DNA of 64,000 nt. Source: Candidatus Desulfofervidaceae bacterium (GTDB taxonomy: Bacteria > Desulfobacterota > Desulfofervidia > Desulfofervidales > Desulfofervidaceae). How positions within the stretch are numbered: the first letter of the stretch is position 1; every line of letters begins with the position of its first letter. The notes below the pieces were generated by a model. That model searched no databases, was not told where the DNA came from, and worked only from the letters and a program-made list of their open reading frames with translations. Below are positions 1 to 21,252 of this stretch, piece by piece. The stretch is from contig JALWFG010000013.1 of NCBI GenBank assembly GCA_027038965.1, positions 1 to 64,000 on the forward strand, written 5' to 3'. The translations under genes and the position numbers were made by a program.

Positions 1-137
1 ACTATAAAACTCCTTATTCTGTCTACTACAACAATGACCCAAAACCCCTTTCTAAAAAATGGGAGATTTATGCTTGACAAATTTTATATTAACCATTATA
101 TCTTTCCAAAAAATTGGGGCATTGCAGTGAATAATTG

Positions 138-590
138 CTAAGAGTTTTTGCCTAAGGTCTTTTTGCTTATACATGGCCTTTTCCTCATATGCCTATTTTT
201 AAGGCGATAAACGCCTTCTATAACACCATCTTCCCTTTTGCGTTTTCCAATCCGCTCCACATATCCAGCCATCCGATACAAACGCACATAACTCTTTACA
301 GTCTCTCTGTCTGCCTCAGCTAGCTGTGCGATCTCATTTACTGTCCATTGCGGGCAATACCGCCACGCCCGCCAGATTTTATCCGCCACAACCCTCCTTT
401 CAGGCCTCCCCAAATACCGATACATGCCATCGTCAACCACAAGTTCCCCCCGCCGCAAAAAATCCCGCACCGTATCTCTTGCACTTTGCCTATCCACAGA
501 AGCAGCCTCGCCAAGCTCCTTATACCTTCCAACTGGCCAGGCCTTCACCAATTTAAAAAGCTCTCTAATTCTTTTCGCCGCTCCCCTCAT
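138..590 (-). CDS. Winged-helix protein of the Mu-like early operon
   Basis: A 150-residue, strongly basic protein with two helix-turn-helix-like stretches. The first is at about residues 20-50 (ELGEAASVDRQSARDTV) and the second at about 80-110 (TVNEIAQLAEADRETVKSYV). This pattern suggests a tandem winged-helix DNA-binding protein. Its start codon overlaps the stop of the MuB-like gene (ATGA), so it is the third early gene of the same leftward operon. I do not recognise a named family. A role in early phage regulation or replication is inferred from position only. A purine-rich AAGGAG follows at about 9-14 on the minus strand, so the next gene of the operon probably starts just outside the window. 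Confidence 0.75.
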   Translation of the reverse strand: MRGAAKRIRELFKLVKAWPVGRYKELGEAASVDRQSARDTVRDFLRRGELVVDDGMYRYLGRPERRVVADKIWRAWRYCPQWTVNEIAQLAEADRETVKSYVRLYRMAGYVERIGKRKREDGVIEGVYRLKNRHMRKRPCISKKTLGKNS

Positions 591-1462
591 ATCCCCTTCA
601 CCACATCCATTGTCAAAGAGACAAGTCTATTTGTGTTCATAAGCCGAACTGCCGCAAATGCATCCCTAACTACCAGCCGAAAATCCCCCTGACTTCTTTG
701 CCAGAGTGCATGGGCAACCTCGCTGTTCAGACTGAGCCCTACGGACATCTGATAATACGCCACCACATCCGCCACCGTCACCGGATCAAAGACCACCACC
801 CGACGCACACGGCTTTTTAGCCTCCGTTCGCTATCCAGCACCCGTCTTAATGGTTCTTCTCCTACAAGCAAAATAGGACAGCTACATCTCTCATTTATGC
901 CCCGCAGCATTTCAAAATATTTCTTTGGCATCTTATCCGCTTCATCTAAAATAATGAGACGCCTGCCTTGAAGAGTGGCCTCATCAATCACATCCAGACA
1001 GGCCCGAAAGGTGCGGGGTCTAATGCCGCCAATCTCATAGGCAATTTCCCGGGCCACGTCCACAAGAGAAAAGCCGTCAACGAAAAGCACATAGATTGAT
1101 TCTGAATGTTGCACTACATAATGCCGGGCCGCCTTTGTTTTGCCCCTGCCTGCTCGTCCTATCACCACCCCGATTGAAGAAGTCAAATCACTATCCCGGT
1201 CCAGGAGCTCATCACAAAGAGTATCAAATTTGTGCACATTCGCCGTCTTAATAAAAACATCAGAACGAACCCGAAATTTTGTTTTTGAAACCACATAGCC
1301 CGCCTCTTTGAGCTTATCCAGAATTTCCGTTTCTACTTGACCATCGCCGCCATATTTGTTATTCTTGATTTGACTGATGGTGCTTTTTGAGTAGCCGGTG
1401 ATGCGGGCGACATCGCCGGCACTCAACCCAAAATGACTCATTACCTCTTTTAGACCTACCAT
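587..1462 (-). CDS. MuB-like transposition target-capture ATPase
   Basis: Homologue of Mu phage protein B, an AAA+ ATPase that binds target DNA and stimulates the MuA transposase. Residues 1-60 form a Cro/lambda-type helix-turn-helix (LSAGDVARITGYSKSTISQI). Walker A is GRAGRGKT at about residue 102 and Walker B is RLIILDEADKM near 170, as in the MuB/TniB/IstB ATPase group. The ATG at 1462 is preferred over an upstream start at 1519 because AAGGAGG lies 6 bp before it and the upstream version would overlap muA by 46 bp. The resulting 291 residues are close to the roughly 310 of Mu B. It lies 11 bp downstream of the transposase gene and must be co-transcribed with it. Confidence 0.9.
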   Translation of the reverse strand: MVGLKEVMSHFGLSAGDVARITGYSKSTISQIKNNKYGGDGQVETEILDKLKEAGYVVSKTKFRVRSDVFIKTANVHKFDTLCDELLDRDSDLTSSIGVVIGRAGRGKTKAARHYVVQHSESIYVLFVDGFSLVDVAREIAYEIGGIRPRTFRACLDVIDEATLQGRRLIILDEADKMPKKYFEMLRGINERCSCPILLVGEEPLRRVLDSERRLKSRVRRVVVFDPVTVADVVAYYQMSVGLSLNSEVAHALWQRSQGDFRLVVRDAFAAVRLMNTNRLVSLTMDVVKGI

Positions 1463-1473
1463 TTTGCACCTCC

Positions 1474-4083
1474 TTATATTGCCTTTTTCTCTCCGTAAAT
1501 TCGCCTGTAACCCTCCCAATACACCTTTTCATCTCCATCCATTTTTGCCTCGTAATCTCTCATAAACGCCCTATCTCTTTCAGAAAGCACTTGTCCTGCT
1601 ATCATGCAGTCCAAACACCACTTGTAATAATCCCAGTCTGTCTGGAAAACCGGTCTCGCCACAATCGGCACCACTTTTTGAGGCCCTTTCATACTCTCTT
1701 CCACGATCCGCCTGGCCTCTGCCTCAATCTCTTGCCCACTCATCTTCCGTTTGGCGTGTATAGCAGCCCTTGTGTGCTTACTATACTCAATAATTCCAGG
1801 CACAGGTCTGGTTAAACGCCTGTAATGCTCTATGACGGCCTGCATCATCTGCCGCTTCCAGGCCATGACTCTGTTTGTCTTCTCCTTGTCCTTCATGGAA
1901 GATACAGGCACCGGATACAACTTCCGAGTGCTCCCATCTGGCAGCACCGCTATGACCTTTGCCGCATCAAACGGGTCGTATCTAACTTCAATTTCCGTTT
2001 TATCCGGCAAATGCCACAGGCCTGCCTCAAGATTGTCCTGGCTGATCGGGTCTCCTTGATACCAGGTATGGTTTAGAAGAATACGGCCACGCTGAACCTT
2101 TCTTGTTGTCCGGGCCAAAAGCACAAAGTCAATTTCTGATTCAGGCAAATATCGGGGCACAAATCCTTCTTCTTTCACCGCCCGCCATAGTTCATCTATA
2201 GGTGCTCTGCCCAAAGCGGCATGTCTGCGTTGGTTATAGACCTGGACTGCCTCAAAAACCTTGACTAAAAACTCTTCAAAAGTAAGAAGCTGATTGGTTT
2301 TGATGAGATGCTTAAGCCGCCTATCCGAAAGGGCCCTTTCTTCTGAAAGGCCCTTTAACTCCCGCACCAGCCCCGGCGTGCCCAAATCCCTCATAATTCC
2401 TTCAAACGAGCGGAAAAAACGCTCAATAGGCTTTGCCTTTGCGTTGTAGGCACGGGCCCGACGGTGCCACTGCCTCGGGCTGCGAACCACTTCCAAAGGC
2501 TCGCCGTCAGGGCCCTCAATGACATAACCATCCTCTGCCCTGTATAACTCAGCCATATCAGCAACCTGACTTCCCCAGCCAGCTATATCGTTTATAACAG
2601 TGTTTACATAATTGCTGATTTCAGGTTTACCGTTATCAGTATAGCAACTCCTGAATTTGCCAAACCGCAAAAGCCCCATCCGCATGGCATGTCCAACAAG
2701 GTACTTATCATAGTGTCTTGCCACAGAAATCCCGTAAATCAGCCTTGTTCGCATATCCAGCCACAAAAAACATTCAGGCCGAAAAACATCACCTGTCTCT
2801 GCAACCCGTACCCAGAAATCAAACCGATGCTGATCCCCAACAATAACTTCAAACGGGGAAAGATCCCTGTAATCCCGCATGATATAAAAGACATTATCCA
2901 GAGCCCGCCTCCCACCGCGGGCATATTTCTCCAGGAGTGGATTGAACTTTTGTAAATAAGCGAAGGCTGACGACTCACACCCAACCCGCCAGCCCTTCTT
3001 CTTTGCCTCTGCCACTACTGCCTGATATGCCCTGCGCTTTGAGCAGTCTCCGCCCTCACGCACGGCCTTCAAATACACACCCCTCAAAAAATCAAGAGCT
3101 TCCTGGTCCCAGGCCACAAGCCCTTTAGATGACCTGGGCTTAACAAGAAAAGAAAGCCCCTTCTCCCGATATATCTTTATGTCGCGGTAAAGCGTTTTAG
3201 GAGAAATCCCAAACTCTTCGGCTACCTCTCTGATCCAGACAGATTTTTTTCTGTCCGGCGGACAGCTCAAGGCCTTCTGTATAGCCTCTATTTTTCTTGC
3301 CACCTTATTTTTAAGACTTTCTTGCCTCAGCACCTCTAACCCCACCCCTTCCACAGGCGCCGTAAGCCTCATAATTTCCCACTGCGCCTGTGGAGAAAGT
3401 TTGTCCTTGATATGCTCTGGAAGCCGCTTAGCCTCCTCTTCGTTTTCTTGCACCCACTTCACCTGGGCTTGCTCAGGAAGACAGGAAAGGGCGACTTCGT
3501 ACACCTTCCCGCCAAAGCCTTTATTGGATGGGACTACTCTTGATAGAAATTTTCCGTTTCTACATCTCTTCTGAACTGCTCTATCAGAAATTCCAAGTAG
3601 TTTTGCTACCTGATTCGTAGAGAGCCATAGTTGCGGTGCAGGTTCGTTAGTAAACCCGATTTTAGGTTCGTTAGGTTCGTTAGTAAGCCCTGAAAAGTTC
3701 GTTAGTCCAGCCTCCACTAACGAACCACTTTTATTTTTTTCTGTTTTCTCCGCATCTTCAAAAAGTGCCTCAGTTCCATTTAGTTCCATTTTGGTTACAC
3801 TTACAGATTTTCCATTCTCAGAAACCCCAGTATCTATGCGGTTTTTTGAGGTTACACTTAGGTTCCACTTAGTTACGCTTTGGTTACACTTAGAGGTTAC
3901 ACTTAAGACCTTTTCTTGCACATCTTCAGGTAGAGTTTCGACTATGTAATATTTTGCAGGGCTTCCTTTTCCATCCGCTCTTGGCTCTTCCACAAACAGC
4001 CAGTTTTCCTTTTTTGCTCTCTTTAAAACAGCTATTCTTGATATGCCCAAAATCTTAGCAATCTCCTTTGCCGTCAGTCTCAT
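1474..4083 (-). CDS. MuA-like DDE transposase
   Basis: Transposase of a Mu-like transposable phage, which cuts and joins the phage ends to target DNA. In the 869-residue form, a helix-turn-helix at residues 1-30 (LTAKEIAKILGISRIAVLKR) and a second at about 155-180 (STNQVAKLLGISDRAVQKR) flank a low-complexity linker. A third HTH is at about 285-305. The integrase core carries Asp417 (GDQHRFDFW), Asp483 (YTDNGK) and Glu554 (KPIERFF). A basic C-terminal region follows, where MuB contact would be expected. ATG at 4083 is chosen because AAGGAAG precedes it and it clears the upstream gene; an upstream GTG at 4143 is possible. The linker is encoded by unusual short DNA repeats. Confidence 0.93.
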   Translation of the reverse strand: MRLTAKEIAKILGISRIAVLKRAKKENWLFVEEPRADGKGSPAKYYIVETLPEDVQEKVLSVTSKCNQSVTKWNLSVTSKNRIDTGVSENGKSVSVTKMELNGTEALFEDAEKTEKNKSGSLVEAGLTNFSGLTNEPNEPKIGFTNEPAPQLWLSTNQVAKLLGISDRAVQKRCRNGKFLSRVVPSNKGFGGKVYEVALSCLPEQAQVKWVQENEEEAKRLPEHIKDKLSPQAQWEIMRLTAPVEGVGLEVLRQESLKNKVARKIEAIQKALSCPPDRKKSVWIREVAEEFGISPKTLYRDIKIYREKGLSFLVKPRSSKGLVAWDQEALDFLRGVYLKAVREGGDCSKRRAYQAVVAEAKKKGWRVGCESSAFAYLQKFNPLLEKYARGGRRALDNVFYIMRDYRDLSPFEVIVGDQHRFDFWVRVAETGDVFRPECFLWLDMRTRLIYGISVARHYDKYLVGHAMRMGLLRFGKFRSCYTDNGKPEISNYVNTVINDIAGWGSQVADMAELYRAEDGYVIEGPDGEPLEVVRSPRQWHRRARAYNAKAKPIERFFRSFEGIMRDLGTPGLVRELKGLSEERALSDRRLKHLIKTNQLLTFEEFLVKVFEAVQVYNQRRHAALGRAPIDELWRAVKEEGFVPRYLPESEIDFVLLARTTRKVQRGRILLNHTWYQGDPISQDNLEAGLWHLPDKTEIEVRYDPFDAAKVIAVLPDGSTRKLYPVPVSSMKDKEKTNRVMAWKRQMMQAVIEHYRRLTRPVPGIIEYSKHTRAAIHAKRKMSGQEIEAEARRIVEESMKGPQKVVPIVARPVFQTDWDYYKWCLDCMIAGQVLSERDRAFMRDYEAKMDGDEKVYWEGYRRIYGEKKAI
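3641..3726. repeat. Array of GGTTCGTTAG repeats inside the transposase gene
   Basis: GGTTCGTTAG occurs at 3641-3650, 3665-3674 and 3674-3683. A nine-base match (GTTCGTTAG) is at 3697-3705 and an inverted copy (CTAACGAACC) at 3717-3726. The repeats encode the TNEP-rich part of the linker between the first two DNA-binding domains of the transposase. Confidence 0.85.
3793..3905. repeat. Array of GGTTACACTTA repeats inside the transposase gene
   Basis: GGTTACACTTA occurs exactly at 3793-3803, 3850-3860, 3882-3892 and 3895-3905. A one-mismatch copy (GGTTCCACTTA) is at 3861-3871 and a weaker one follows at 3871. On the coding strand the array gives repeated SVTK/SVTSK peptides. A tandem TAGTTCCATTT duplication lies just before the first copy. 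Confidence 0.85.
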
Positions 4084-4094
4084 TCTCTTCTTCC

Positions 4095-4298
4095 TTAATT
4101 TTCCTGCTTCTTTAACCCTTTCCTCAAATATTCCTCTGGACACCCATGCTCTTTAAGCCACTCAACCACCCGCGCCGATGTGCTTTTGCCCTGTATGACC
4201 AAAACCACTGCCACATGGCTTATCCCAAGTTCCCTGGCAATCTGTGTCTTTGTAATCCCCTGCCTCTTAAGCCACTTATTTATCTTTTGTGTCTTCAT
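4095..4298 (-). CDS. Small phage HTH regulator
   Basis: A 67-residue protein made almost entirely of one helix-turn-helix (ITKTQIARELGISHVAVVLVIQ, about residues 15-36, HTH core inside). Size and position resemble Ner/Cro-type negative regulators that lie at the start of the early operon of transposable phages. Its start overlaps the end of the upstream gene by 4 bp and it ends 11 bp before the transposase. A role as an early-promoter regulator is inferred from size and place. Confidence 0.75.
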   Translation of the reverse strand: MKTQKINKWLKRQGITKTQIARELGISHVAVVLVIQGKSTSARVVEWLKEHGCPEEYLRKGLKKQEN

Positions 4299-4732
4299 AT
4301 CCCTATCTCCTCTAATAATTTCCGAGTTTTTCTTGACAATTCACGCCTTTTAATCTCTGCCTTCGCCCATTCAAGCAGCTTTACCTCCTTGCCTATAACC
4401 AACGTTGCCCCAACTGGGGCCGCCAATGCAGCAAGCGGCAAAATACTGCCTGTAACCTTGCAAAAAATCGGCAATAACTTCCAGGGAATAATGTGGGCTG
4501 CCTCCTGTGCTACCCATTTATCCAGTAGCGAAGGCGAAACCTTAGCATGAACGCCATTAATCTTGGCCAATCTATTCATTTCATCGCTGATTTGTTCCCT
4601 AGACAGGCCGCATTCCTTAATTGCCTCTTTCATAGCCGCCTTCACCTTAGGAACAGGGTTTAAAGAGGGGCTGCCAAAGAGATGTCTTTGTTCAAAAGAC
4701 TTCTTGTCCGAAAAAAGCCGTTGACTTTCCAT
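4295..4732 (-). CDS. Phage regulatory protein, CII-like
   Basis: A 145-residue protein, first gene of the leftward early operon, starting 96 bp from the divergent repressor. The central part (EAIKECGLSREQISDEMNR, then a segment ending in PSLLDKWVAQEAAHIIP) resembles the phage CII/CP76-type regulators that combine an HTH with a conserved hydrophobic 'IP..LLPIFCKVTG' stretch. The assignment rests on recalled pattern, not on a search. An adaptor or replication-control role cannot be excluded. Confidence 0.6.
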   Translation of the reverse strand: MESQRLFSDKKSFEQRHLFGSPSLNPVPKVKAAMKEAIKECGLSREQISDEMNRLAKINGVHAKVSPSLLDKWVAQEAAHIIPWKLLPIFCKVTGSILPLAALAAPVGATLVIGKEVKLLEWAKAEIKRRELSRKTRKLLEEIGI

Positions 4733-4778
4733 TTCTTTGTCAGTTACAGTATTGGTAAATTACTTGGGAGTATAATAA

Positions 4779-4824
4779 TCGGTATACGGATATTTGCCAA
4801 GAATAAATTTTCGGTATGGGGATA
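4779..4824. promoter_or_regulatory. Operator-like direct repeats between repressor and early operon
   Basis: Two copies of TCGGTAT-x-x-GGATA lie at 4779-4792 and 4811-4824. They are 32 bp apart (about three helical turns), inside the 96-bp divergent promoter region. The second copy sits directly before the repressor start. This is where a repressor would control both its own gene and the early operon. Binding is inferred. Confidence 0.65.
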
Positions 4825-4828
4825 ATTT

Positions 4829-5503
4829 ATGGTTGGCCGTAGGATAAGAGCATATAGAAAGAAAAAGGGCTTAACTGTTAAACAGTTAGCAGAAATTATC
4901 GGTATTTCTCAAGGTTCCCTATCTGATATTGAAAATGAAAAAACAAAACCATCTGCAAAAACCATAACTTCTCTTGTTCGGAATACCGATATAAATCCTA
5001 CTTGGCTTCTCACTGGTCAAGGAGAAATGTTTAAAAAGCCAGTCAAAGAATTACCCATTGAGCCCATGACTGCTCAAGAAATTTTGCAAAAATTTCCAGA
5101 AGTTAAGCCTGTTAAAGCAGTTCCTGTTATAAACATTCAGGTTCCAGCAGGCTTTCCAGAACTACCTTTATCCCAAGAACAAATCATTGATTACCTTTAT
5201 TTACCCGACATTCCCAAAGGCTCCATTGCTATCAAAGTCAAAGGCAACAGTATGGAACCTACCATTGAAGATGGAGAATATGTAGTATTCTTACCAATAA
5301 ACAAACTCATGGAGTCCATCAAAAGCGGCGACATAATCATCGTCAGAAACGAATGGAATGAACTCATCTTAAAAAGATACAGAGAAAAAAATGGCAAAAT
5401 CTATCTTACAAGTGATAATCCCAAATACCCGACAATTGAAGTAAACGAACATTACAAAATAGTAGGAAAAGCAATCTGCGCAGTAAAAGAGAAGAAATTC
5501 TAA
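4829..5503 (+). CDS. Prophage repressor, HTH plus S24 self-cleavage domain
   Basis: A 224-residue CI/LexA-like repressor. Residues 1-65 are an HTH_3/XRE DNA-binding domain (LTVKQLAEIIGISQGSLSDI). Residues about 95-220 are a peptidase S24 domain with the nucleophile Ser141 (GNSMEPT) and general base Lys182 (ELILKRY). An Ala107-Gly108 pair in VPAGFP is placed like the LexA/CI autocleavage site, so induction by the SOS response is likely. It is divergent from the early genes, as in other transposable phages. No strong ribosome-binding site precedes the ATG, so low or leaderless expression is possible. The neighbouring HTH gene is the alternative control protein. Confidence 0.9.
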   Translation: MVGRRIRAYRKKKGLTVKQLAEIIGISQGSLSDIENEKTKPSAKTITSLVRNTDINPTWLLTGQGEMFKKPVKELPIEPMTAQEILQKFPEVKPVKAVPVINIQVPAGFPELPLSQEQIIDYLYLPDIPKGSIAIKVKGNSMEPTIEDGEYVVFLPINKLMESIKSGDIIIVRNEWNELILKRYREKNGKIYLTSDNPKYPTIEVNEHYKIVGKAICAVKEKKF

Positions 5504-5927
5504 ACCCAGCCTGAGGGTTTATAAACGTTTATAAACACTTTGGTCATTTTGTAAAATTGTCTAAGGTTATGTTGGAACAACCCGCTCAAACAGATTTAAG
5601 CCTGTAAAATTACGACATTACTTGAGACAAACTTTCCCGCACCACTCCTACAAAAACCTTTATATTCCAATTCTATAAATTTCTAAAATTAAATTATATT
5701 TTACATTTATCTCCTGTGGCGTTACGAGTTCACTTTTCATTTATGCCCACTTTTACTGCATTTTTGCCTTTTGGGTAGCTTCAAAATAAACGAGTTGCTG
5801 TCAAAAAAAACTGAGTCTAAGTGGCCTTTGTTGTTTCTAAACCCCATTTTTATTGAAATTATTTGTTTGACAGAAAAGAGAAAATTTAATAAAAGTAAGC
5901 CTGACAAAGAGATAGAAAAATATCAAC
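5504..5927. other. Gene-free region holding the probable prophage end
   Basis: No convincing coding sequence is present. The repressor of a Mu-like phage lies next to its left end, so the host junction should fall in this AT-rich stretch. Three sites sharing an ACGA core followed by a T-rich half (about 5612, 5724 and 5790) are spaced on the scale of MuA-binding sites. The exact boundary cannot be set without an empty-site sequence or the other phage end. Confidence 0.5.
5517..5536. repeat. Tandem 10-bp palindrome
   Basis: GTTTATAAAC, itself a perfect palindrome, occurs twice back to back 14 bp after the repressor stop codon. It may be a protein-binding site near the phage end or part of a termination structure. 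It lacks a following T-tract. Confidence 0.6.
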
Positions 5928-20899: not shown

Positions 20900-21252
20900 T
20901 GAATATGCCCATTCGACTTTGGGCTATTTAAGCCCTACCCAATTTGAAAGGCATTTTTATCAAACGTATTATCAGGAGGCTGCTTAATGGCTCACTACCT
21001 TGCTAAATAAGGCAAAAGCGGAGCTCAGTTAAAACTTAACAACTAAGGACTAAGCACCAGTTGGATTTTAAATTTTGGATTTTAGATTTTGGATTAGGTT
21101 GCAATTGCTCAATGTAAAATAGGGCGAAAGGCTAAAGGCGAGCTTACTTAAAACTTAAAACTTAAAACTTAAAACTTAATAACTAAGCACTAAGTACTAG
21201 GGACCAAGGACTAAGGACTAAAATATGTCCGCCCTGGAGGGGGTCACTACAA
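20900..21252 (+). mobile_element. MITE-like element, copy B, with inserted short repeats
   Basis: 20900-20995 and 21218-21252 match copy A (5960-6103). They keep both hairpins, the AGGAGG and the ATG, which here opens only 7 codons (MAHYLAK). About 220 bp of simple sequence are inserted between the two blocks. This includes four tandem AAAACTT units (about 21148-21178) and degenerate ACTAAG heptamers up to 21220. The flanks (20646-20899 and 21253-21290) show no gene; the left flank should hold the clpB promoter. Confidence 0.65.

Follow-up and report, generated by a model that had tools for sequence, protein, structure and literature searches.

The transpositional enhancer of phage Mu is a textbook case, and its detail is known from one phage group. 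It lies in the operator region upstream of gene A and is also called the internal activation sequence (IAS). A Mu-type enhancer has an IHF site between its sub-sites and stimulates transposition in cis on supercoiled DNA. In the heteroimmune pair Mu and D108, the N-terminal domain of A and the control DNA differ, and the rest of A is conserved. The I-alpha domain of MuA binds the enhancer (PMC3362531), which comes together with both Mu ends ahead of transpososome formation (PMC3362531; PMC3820752). According to a 2021 survey (PMC8705779), the domain that binds the enhancer is 'so far ... specific to Mu'. The replication origin iterons of phage lambda lie inside gene O, the gene for their binder (PMC4488673).

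In this study, we analysed a window of 64,000 nucleotides that carries part of a Mu-like prophage, in which positions 3641-3905 fall within the MuA-family transposase gene. The prophage is divided between contigs and comprises window positions 1-5705 and positions 1 to about 26700 of contig C10 (G000). The late genes are on contig C10, together with the right end, which adjoins host genes. The genes and the terminus in the window were as follows.

1474 to 4143, minus strand: MuA-family transposase gene, 889 aa from GTG (phrog_310 transposase, E 1.9e-73; DDE_2; Mu-transpos_C; relatives)
587 to 1519: MuB-type AAA ATPase gene, adjacent to and downstream of the transposase gene (phrog_296 DNA transposition protein, E 4e-49)
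4095 to 4298, minus strand: Ner-like HTH gene
4829 to 5503, plus strand: CI/S24 repressor gene
5692 to 5705, minus strand: probable left terminus of the prophage, TGTAAAATATAATT, a sequence also present in locus L002

The catalytic core and C-terminal domain of the transposase are of the MuA type, with PF09299 above the cut-off and PF02914 just below it (22.7 vs 23 bits). A Ner-like gene, a regulator and the CI/S24 repressor lie upstream of the transposase gene. A palindrome, GTTTATAAACGTTTATAAAC, is found at 5517-5540 by the 3' end of the repressor gene and is conserved, including in L002, L003 and L050. Neighbouring heptanucleotide tandem arrays (TTGGATT, ACTTAAA and ACTAAGG) occupy 21061-21221 of the window.

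The first-pass annotation had reported two short-repeat arrays at 3641-3905. Array 2 is GGTTCGTTAG as listed by position and CTAACGAACC on the coding strand; array 1 is GGTTACACTTA, or TAAGTGTAACC on the coding strand.

3641 to 3726, minus strand: array 2, CTAACGAACC, an inverted copy at 3717-3726 and then four direct copies
3793 to 3905, minus strand: array 1, TAAGTGTAACC, four exact and one or two degenerate direct copies in two reading frames
3772 to 3791, minus strand: two degenerate array 1 copies, AAATGGAACT

The coordinates and copies given there stood, with small corrections to the counts. GGTTCGTTAG has three exact direct copies (3641, 3665 and 3674) and a fourth at 3696 (AGTTCGTTAG), in which the last base of the coding-strand motif is altered, together with one exact inverted copy at 3717-3726. 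On the coding strand, the direct copies of array 2 start at 3705, 3683, 3674 and 3650, with a spacing of 21, 22, 9 and 24. GGTTACACTTA has four exact copies at 3793, 3850, 3882 and 3895, a copy with 1 mismatch at 3861 (GGTTCCACTTA), and weaker copies at 3872 (AGTTACGCTTT) and 3772/3782 (AGTTCCATTT). All copies of array 1 are direct with near-tandem spacing, and none is inverted. The arrays lie 0.24-0.5 kb inside the transposase gene, and the inferred left end is about 1.8-2.1 kb away. In the 380-bp region, 6 copies of the best 10-mer family were counted, compared with a maximum of 3 both in 40 dinucleotide shuffles and in 22 other stretches of the locus. When the whole 2.19-Mb assembly was searched, 4/5 exact copies of each motif were in this gene, and near-identical sites were absent from the rest of the prophage. 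The arrays are therefore real, with copy numbers reached by 0/40 shuffles and 0/300 synonymous recodings.

The repeats had been read as TNEP and SVTK peptide repeats. This reading held only in part. Array 1 copies occupy two frames and read as SVT or as KCN/KWN. Array 2 copies also occupy two frames, and the inverted copy reads GSLV. The peptide-repeat reading was rejected, as the copies are mutually out of frame. When the linker codons were recoded synonymously, at most 4 copies arose in 300 recodings, compared with 6 observed. The observed copy number was likewise reached by 0/300 recodings in each of the window and the loci L003, L050, L005 and L068, where L-numbers denote related Mu-like loci compared with the window. 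Control stretches of the same gene did not exceed their own recoded copy numbers. Since the copies lie in different frames and one is inverted, the arrays are constrained at the DNA level, not at the peptide level. They also differ from a coding minisatellite, which has head-to-tail copies in a single frame and orientation.

The arrays had been placed between two DNA-binding domains of the transposase, and the structural models bore this out. The domains of the protein that bear on the arrays were as follows.

3904 to 4086, minus strand: I-alpha-like domain 1, K-type (ISRIAVLKRAKKENW), recognition-helix position 15 = Ile37 (alignment; AlphaFold winged helix, pLDDT about 72-91)
3424 to 3636, minus strand: I-alpha-like domain 2, W-type (WLSTNQVAKLLGISDRAVQKRC), recognition-helix position 15 = Arg188 (PF12728 HTH_17; AlphaFold pLDDT about 86-97)
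3130 to 3255, minus strand: HTH of the end-binding I-beta/gamma region (PF13518/PF13384 at aa 304-338; conserved across the clade, 69-98% identity between relatives)

In the AlphaFold model, the two winged-helix domains are linked by a predicted disordered stretch that coincides with the arrays. The pLDDT of this linker is below 50 at residues 78-154 of the modelled fragment, which correspond to about aa 89-165 of the protein. Array 2 adjoins domain 2, and array 1 adjoins domain 1. A profile built without Mu had 1tns (MuA I-alpha) as its only Mu match (E 7e-5). 1tns was also the top Foldseek match, with a probability of 1.00 but an E of 0.013, and the next match was the Mu repressor domain. 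Both N-terminal domains of the window transposase thus resemble MuA I-alpha by sequence profile and by fold. In L007 (2348-2432) and L051 (5790-5866), a different two-domain transposase N-terminus has a linker array, GATTGGCGACA, of direct copies only.

The end sites and the repressor operators were located separately from the arrays.

5557 to 5577, plus strand: transposase end-site-like sequence TTGTCTAAGGTTATGTTGGAA at the left end; L002, L003 and L050 have these sites too
5610 to 5630, minus strand: second left-end site, TTGTCTCAAGTAATGTCGTAA
4776 to 4825, no strand assigned: probable repressor operators ATAATCGGTATACGGATA and TTTTCGGTATGGGGATAA, which have no relation to the arrays; L050, with the repressor HTH in common, keeps them, and L002 and L003 have other operator sequences

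The sites at 5557 and 5610 are of the TTGTCTNANNTTATGTTGNAA kind, and at the right end three such sites stand in tandem with 21-22 bp spacing (contig C10, 26636-26699), in an arrangement that resembles R1-R3 of Mu. A tandem triple of end sites is also present in the closest viral contig, and the TTGTCTNANNTTATGTTGNAA sites are conserved across the window, L002, L003 and L050. Because the arrays look similar to AARYRCGAAA, the consensus of the Mu ends in the D108 annotation, we considered them as end-binding sites, and rejected this since the true end sites were found separately. As with a Mu-type enhancer, we found a cluster of repeated sites that is internal, near the left end and apart from the end sites. 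Unlike a Mu-type enhancer, it does not overlap the repressor operator, which lies at 4776-4825 and has a different motif. The repressor HTH is swapped among the window, L002 and L003 (19-27% identity); the C-terminal half is 78-98% identical, and the operators change to match.

A comparison with related prophages had been proposed, and it revealed arrays at the matching place with different motifs and a common geometry, under DNA-level constraint in L003, L050, L005 and L068. Among 395 genomes of the phylum, five matches were found besides the window's own copy, and those loci were examined by an array-signature scan. Related transposases, 52-72% identical, have arrays at the matching place, with the motifs AAAGTGCCAAC in L002, AGGTGCGAAC in L003 and L004, AAAGTGCGCAA in L050 and GATTGGTGGACAA in L005. 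L050 is MZGJ01000038.1, a contig filed under a CPR3 MAG and possibly misbinned, whose prophage is close to that of the window. In the more distant L008, L025, L027, L068 and L073, the arrays are at the start of A, partly within its first codons, and in L008 and L073 the copies flank the start. The common geometry begins with an inverted copy. Direct copies follow at steps of about 20, 12, 20 and 12 bp, or else a single direct copy stands about 90-105 bp downstream. Direct and inverted copies stand in fixed 10-12 and 20 bp phasing. The window is atypical, as an inverted copy is missing from array 1 and the spacing in array 2 is 21/22/9/24 instead of 20/12/20/12. A scan for this signature picked out about 20 distinct real loci, compared with 0 hits in 1.35 Mb of shuffled sequence.

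The idea that arrays are limited to W-type transposases was wrong. In phages with a K-type transposase, an array of the same geometry lies between the repressor and ner, in non-coding, intergenic DNA near the early promoters. These K-type arrays contain AT-rich gaps of about 90 bp, and in one of them (L192) the motif, AAGTGTAA, is similar to array 1. Arrays near A are absent in some related Mu-like phages, and a search near A in Mu, D108, SfMu, D3112, JBD24, Ab30 and B23 gave none. A viral-contig scan with L068 as the query gave no match. The same copy count applied to the repressor-ner region of Mu gave 4 copies, a weak signal. As 3/40 shuffles also reached 4 copies, the control in Mu agrees with the reading without being strong evidence for it.

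Two arrays of one phage have a common motif in L003 (388-460 and 2186-2259) and in L050 (433-505 and 2225-2297). The left-end arrays of these phages (L003:388-460 and L050:433-505) are apparent duplicates of the start of gene A. The agreement within a phage could be due to gene conversion or to a shared binder; gene conversion is possible because the flanking sequence shows that both arrays of a phage are duplicates. A second array of this kind was not found at the left end of the window. At L002:3373-3433, a second array with the L050 motif stands beside L002's own array, with only one I-alpha domain in the transposase. It is a possible relic of a specificity switch.

These comparisons bear on two explanations in which the repeats would not be protein-binding DNA. 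One is slippage expansion of a flexible linker, which the first-pass annotation had considered; in the form assessed here, slippage or recombination would have expanded an unconstrained linker, and the repeats would have no binding role. The linker is indeed predicted to be disordered by AlphaFold, and array 1 is all direct and near-tandem. However, inverted copies and several frames occur, the same geometry recurs at non-coding positions and in other phages with other motifs, and all copies of an array change in concert. Slippage as the main cause is therefore highly improbable, although it may have lengthened array 1, since the copies there are all direct. A second explanation is an RNA-level element, in which mRNA hairpins formed by the inverted copies regulate translation of A. 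Inverted repeats of 10-14 nt are present, but most copies are direct repeats, an equal geometry is found in intergenic DNA, and the fixed phasing of 10-12 and 20 bp is as for a DNA-binding protein. We consider this explanation scarcely credible.

We then compared the candidate binders with the array motifs. The repressor, raised as a binder in the first-pass annotation, is unlikely to play this role in this clade, because the repressor HTH is 90% identical between the window and L050 and the operator is common to both, but the array motif is different. A reading of the arrays as the repressor operator was also rejected for this clade, as the probable operators have a different sequence. Ner is an unlikely binder as well, because L002 and L003 share Ner (95% identical) but not the motif, and L201 and L214 share the motif and I-alpha but not Ner. 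L195 has the motif of L201 and L214 and a similar I-alpha helix, with a different repressor and Ner. Between L003 and L050, the I-beta/gamma region is 98% identical and the I-alpha wing 96%, but the I-alpha helix-turn-helix is only 47% identical, and the motif differs.

The motif was also associated with a residue of the recognition helix. Helix position 15 is R in 8/8 CGAA arrays compared with 5/19 others (Fisher 0.0006) and Q in 5/5 CAAC arrays (Fisher 0.0003), in a set of 27 arrays in which the motif features were chosen after looking and the loci are phylogenetically non-independent. Permutation over positions gave p 0.007 for the association between residue and motif. In the 20 loci where I-alpha, the repressor and Ner were comparable, I-alpha had the best single-column association (permutation p 0.026 for CAAC and 0.053 for CG[AC]A). 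The CGAA feature alone failed the permutation test in this set (p 0.20), and the repressor and Ner had no significant association with the motif. A whole-domain Mantel test of motif against I-alpha was not significant over all 20 loci (rho 0.07, p 0.25) and gave p 0.019 within the K-type subset. The covariation is thus modest. Conservation extends to the end sites and to the domain that binds them, and it is the array and the I-alpha helix that vary. Together, these sequence comparisons provide moderate, indirect evidence that the I-alpha domain reads the arrays. In the window, the likeliest pairing by sequence is that of array 2 (ACGAACC) with domain 2 (R188), as the residue rule predicts. 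Pairing of array 1 with domain 1 (I37) would be a guess.

The clustered sites had been likened to the Mu internal enhancer, and this suggestion gained support, as the geometry is kept while the motif changes and the motif appears to track the I-alpha recognition helix. We propose, with a probability of roughly two in three, that the arrays are a transpositional enhancer bound by the transposase's own I-alpha domains, a counterpart of the Mu IAS. By analogy with Mu, we infer array binding by I-alpha, the pairing of domain and array, and enhancer activity. The N-terminal winged-helix I-alpha domains would bind the arrays as double-stranded DNA sites, so that the transposase would hold the array via I-alpha and the end sites via I-beta/gamma. 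Joining of the enhancer and the prophage ends in one complex would promote assembly of the active transpososome. The enhancer would sit inside the A gene, in the codons of the disordered linker next to the domain that reads it. More tentatively, and at somewhat less than even odds, these arrays may define a class of in-gene enhancers in which the array and its reading domain move and switch specificity as one cassette. The window transposase would then have dual specificity, each of its two I-alpha domains having a cognate enhancer, and the R/Q rule with CGAA/CAAC would apply across Mu-like phages.

An autoregulatory operator would be a different role for the same DNA: a Ner-like protein, the repressor or the transposase would bind the arrays and control transcription through A, with no enhancer role in transposition. 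The K-type arrays of the same geometry in the repressor-ner region by the early promoters would fit this, as would the copies that flank the start of A in L008 and L073. In Mu, moreover, the operators and the enhancer are one DNA ('O/E, operator/enhancer' in a figure legend of PMC3820752). However, the window array is 0.24-0.5 kb into the gene, away from its start, the repressor operator has a different sequence, and neither Ner nor the repressor tracks the motif. If the binder is the transposase, the operator role is compatible with the enhancer reading. An operator without an enhancer role is improbable.

It is also conceivable that only array 2 is functional and that one window array (array 1 being the probable one) is what was left of an earlier enhancer after the gain of a new array and I-alpha domain. 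The second array of L002, which has the AAAGTGCGCAA motif of L050 beside a single I-alpha domain, and the absence of an inverted copy from array 1 point in this direction. However, array 1 is little decayed, with four exact 11 bp copies, a possible reader for it is retained in the window as the second I-alpha domain, and a similar motif occurs in the K-type phage L192. We regard a relic as rather doubtful.

If the transpositional enhancer reading is true, enhancer arrays are widespread in Mu-like phages and can be found by geometry alone, and a testable rule ties one transposase residue to the site sequence. An enhancer in the transposase gene, apart from the operator, would separate functions that are entangled in Mu and could be tested without disturbing repression. 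A description of such arrays was not found in the open-access literature, for which coverage was incomplete.

The closest known system is the enhancer of Mu and D108. Like the Mu enhancer/IAS, the arrays consist of short sites clustered towards the left of the phage; the winged-helix I-alpha domains are homologous by sequence and fold, separate conserved right-end sites occur in threes, and the arrays of the K-type relatives lie in the repressor-ner region, the place of the Mu enhancer/operator. Unlike in Mu, the window array occupies linker codons of the transposase gene and is not the repressor operator. The window repressor is of the CI/S24 type and unrelated to I-alpha, and the window has two I-alpha domains and two motifs. 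As between Mu and D108, the N-terminal domain and the control DNA vary and the rest of A is conserved, but here the array and the domain swap within the A gene, and repressor specificity varies separately. The closest layout is the lambda origin in gene O, where binding sites lie within the gene of their binder, as the candidate sites would here. The likeness is one of layout only, as the protein family and the process are different.
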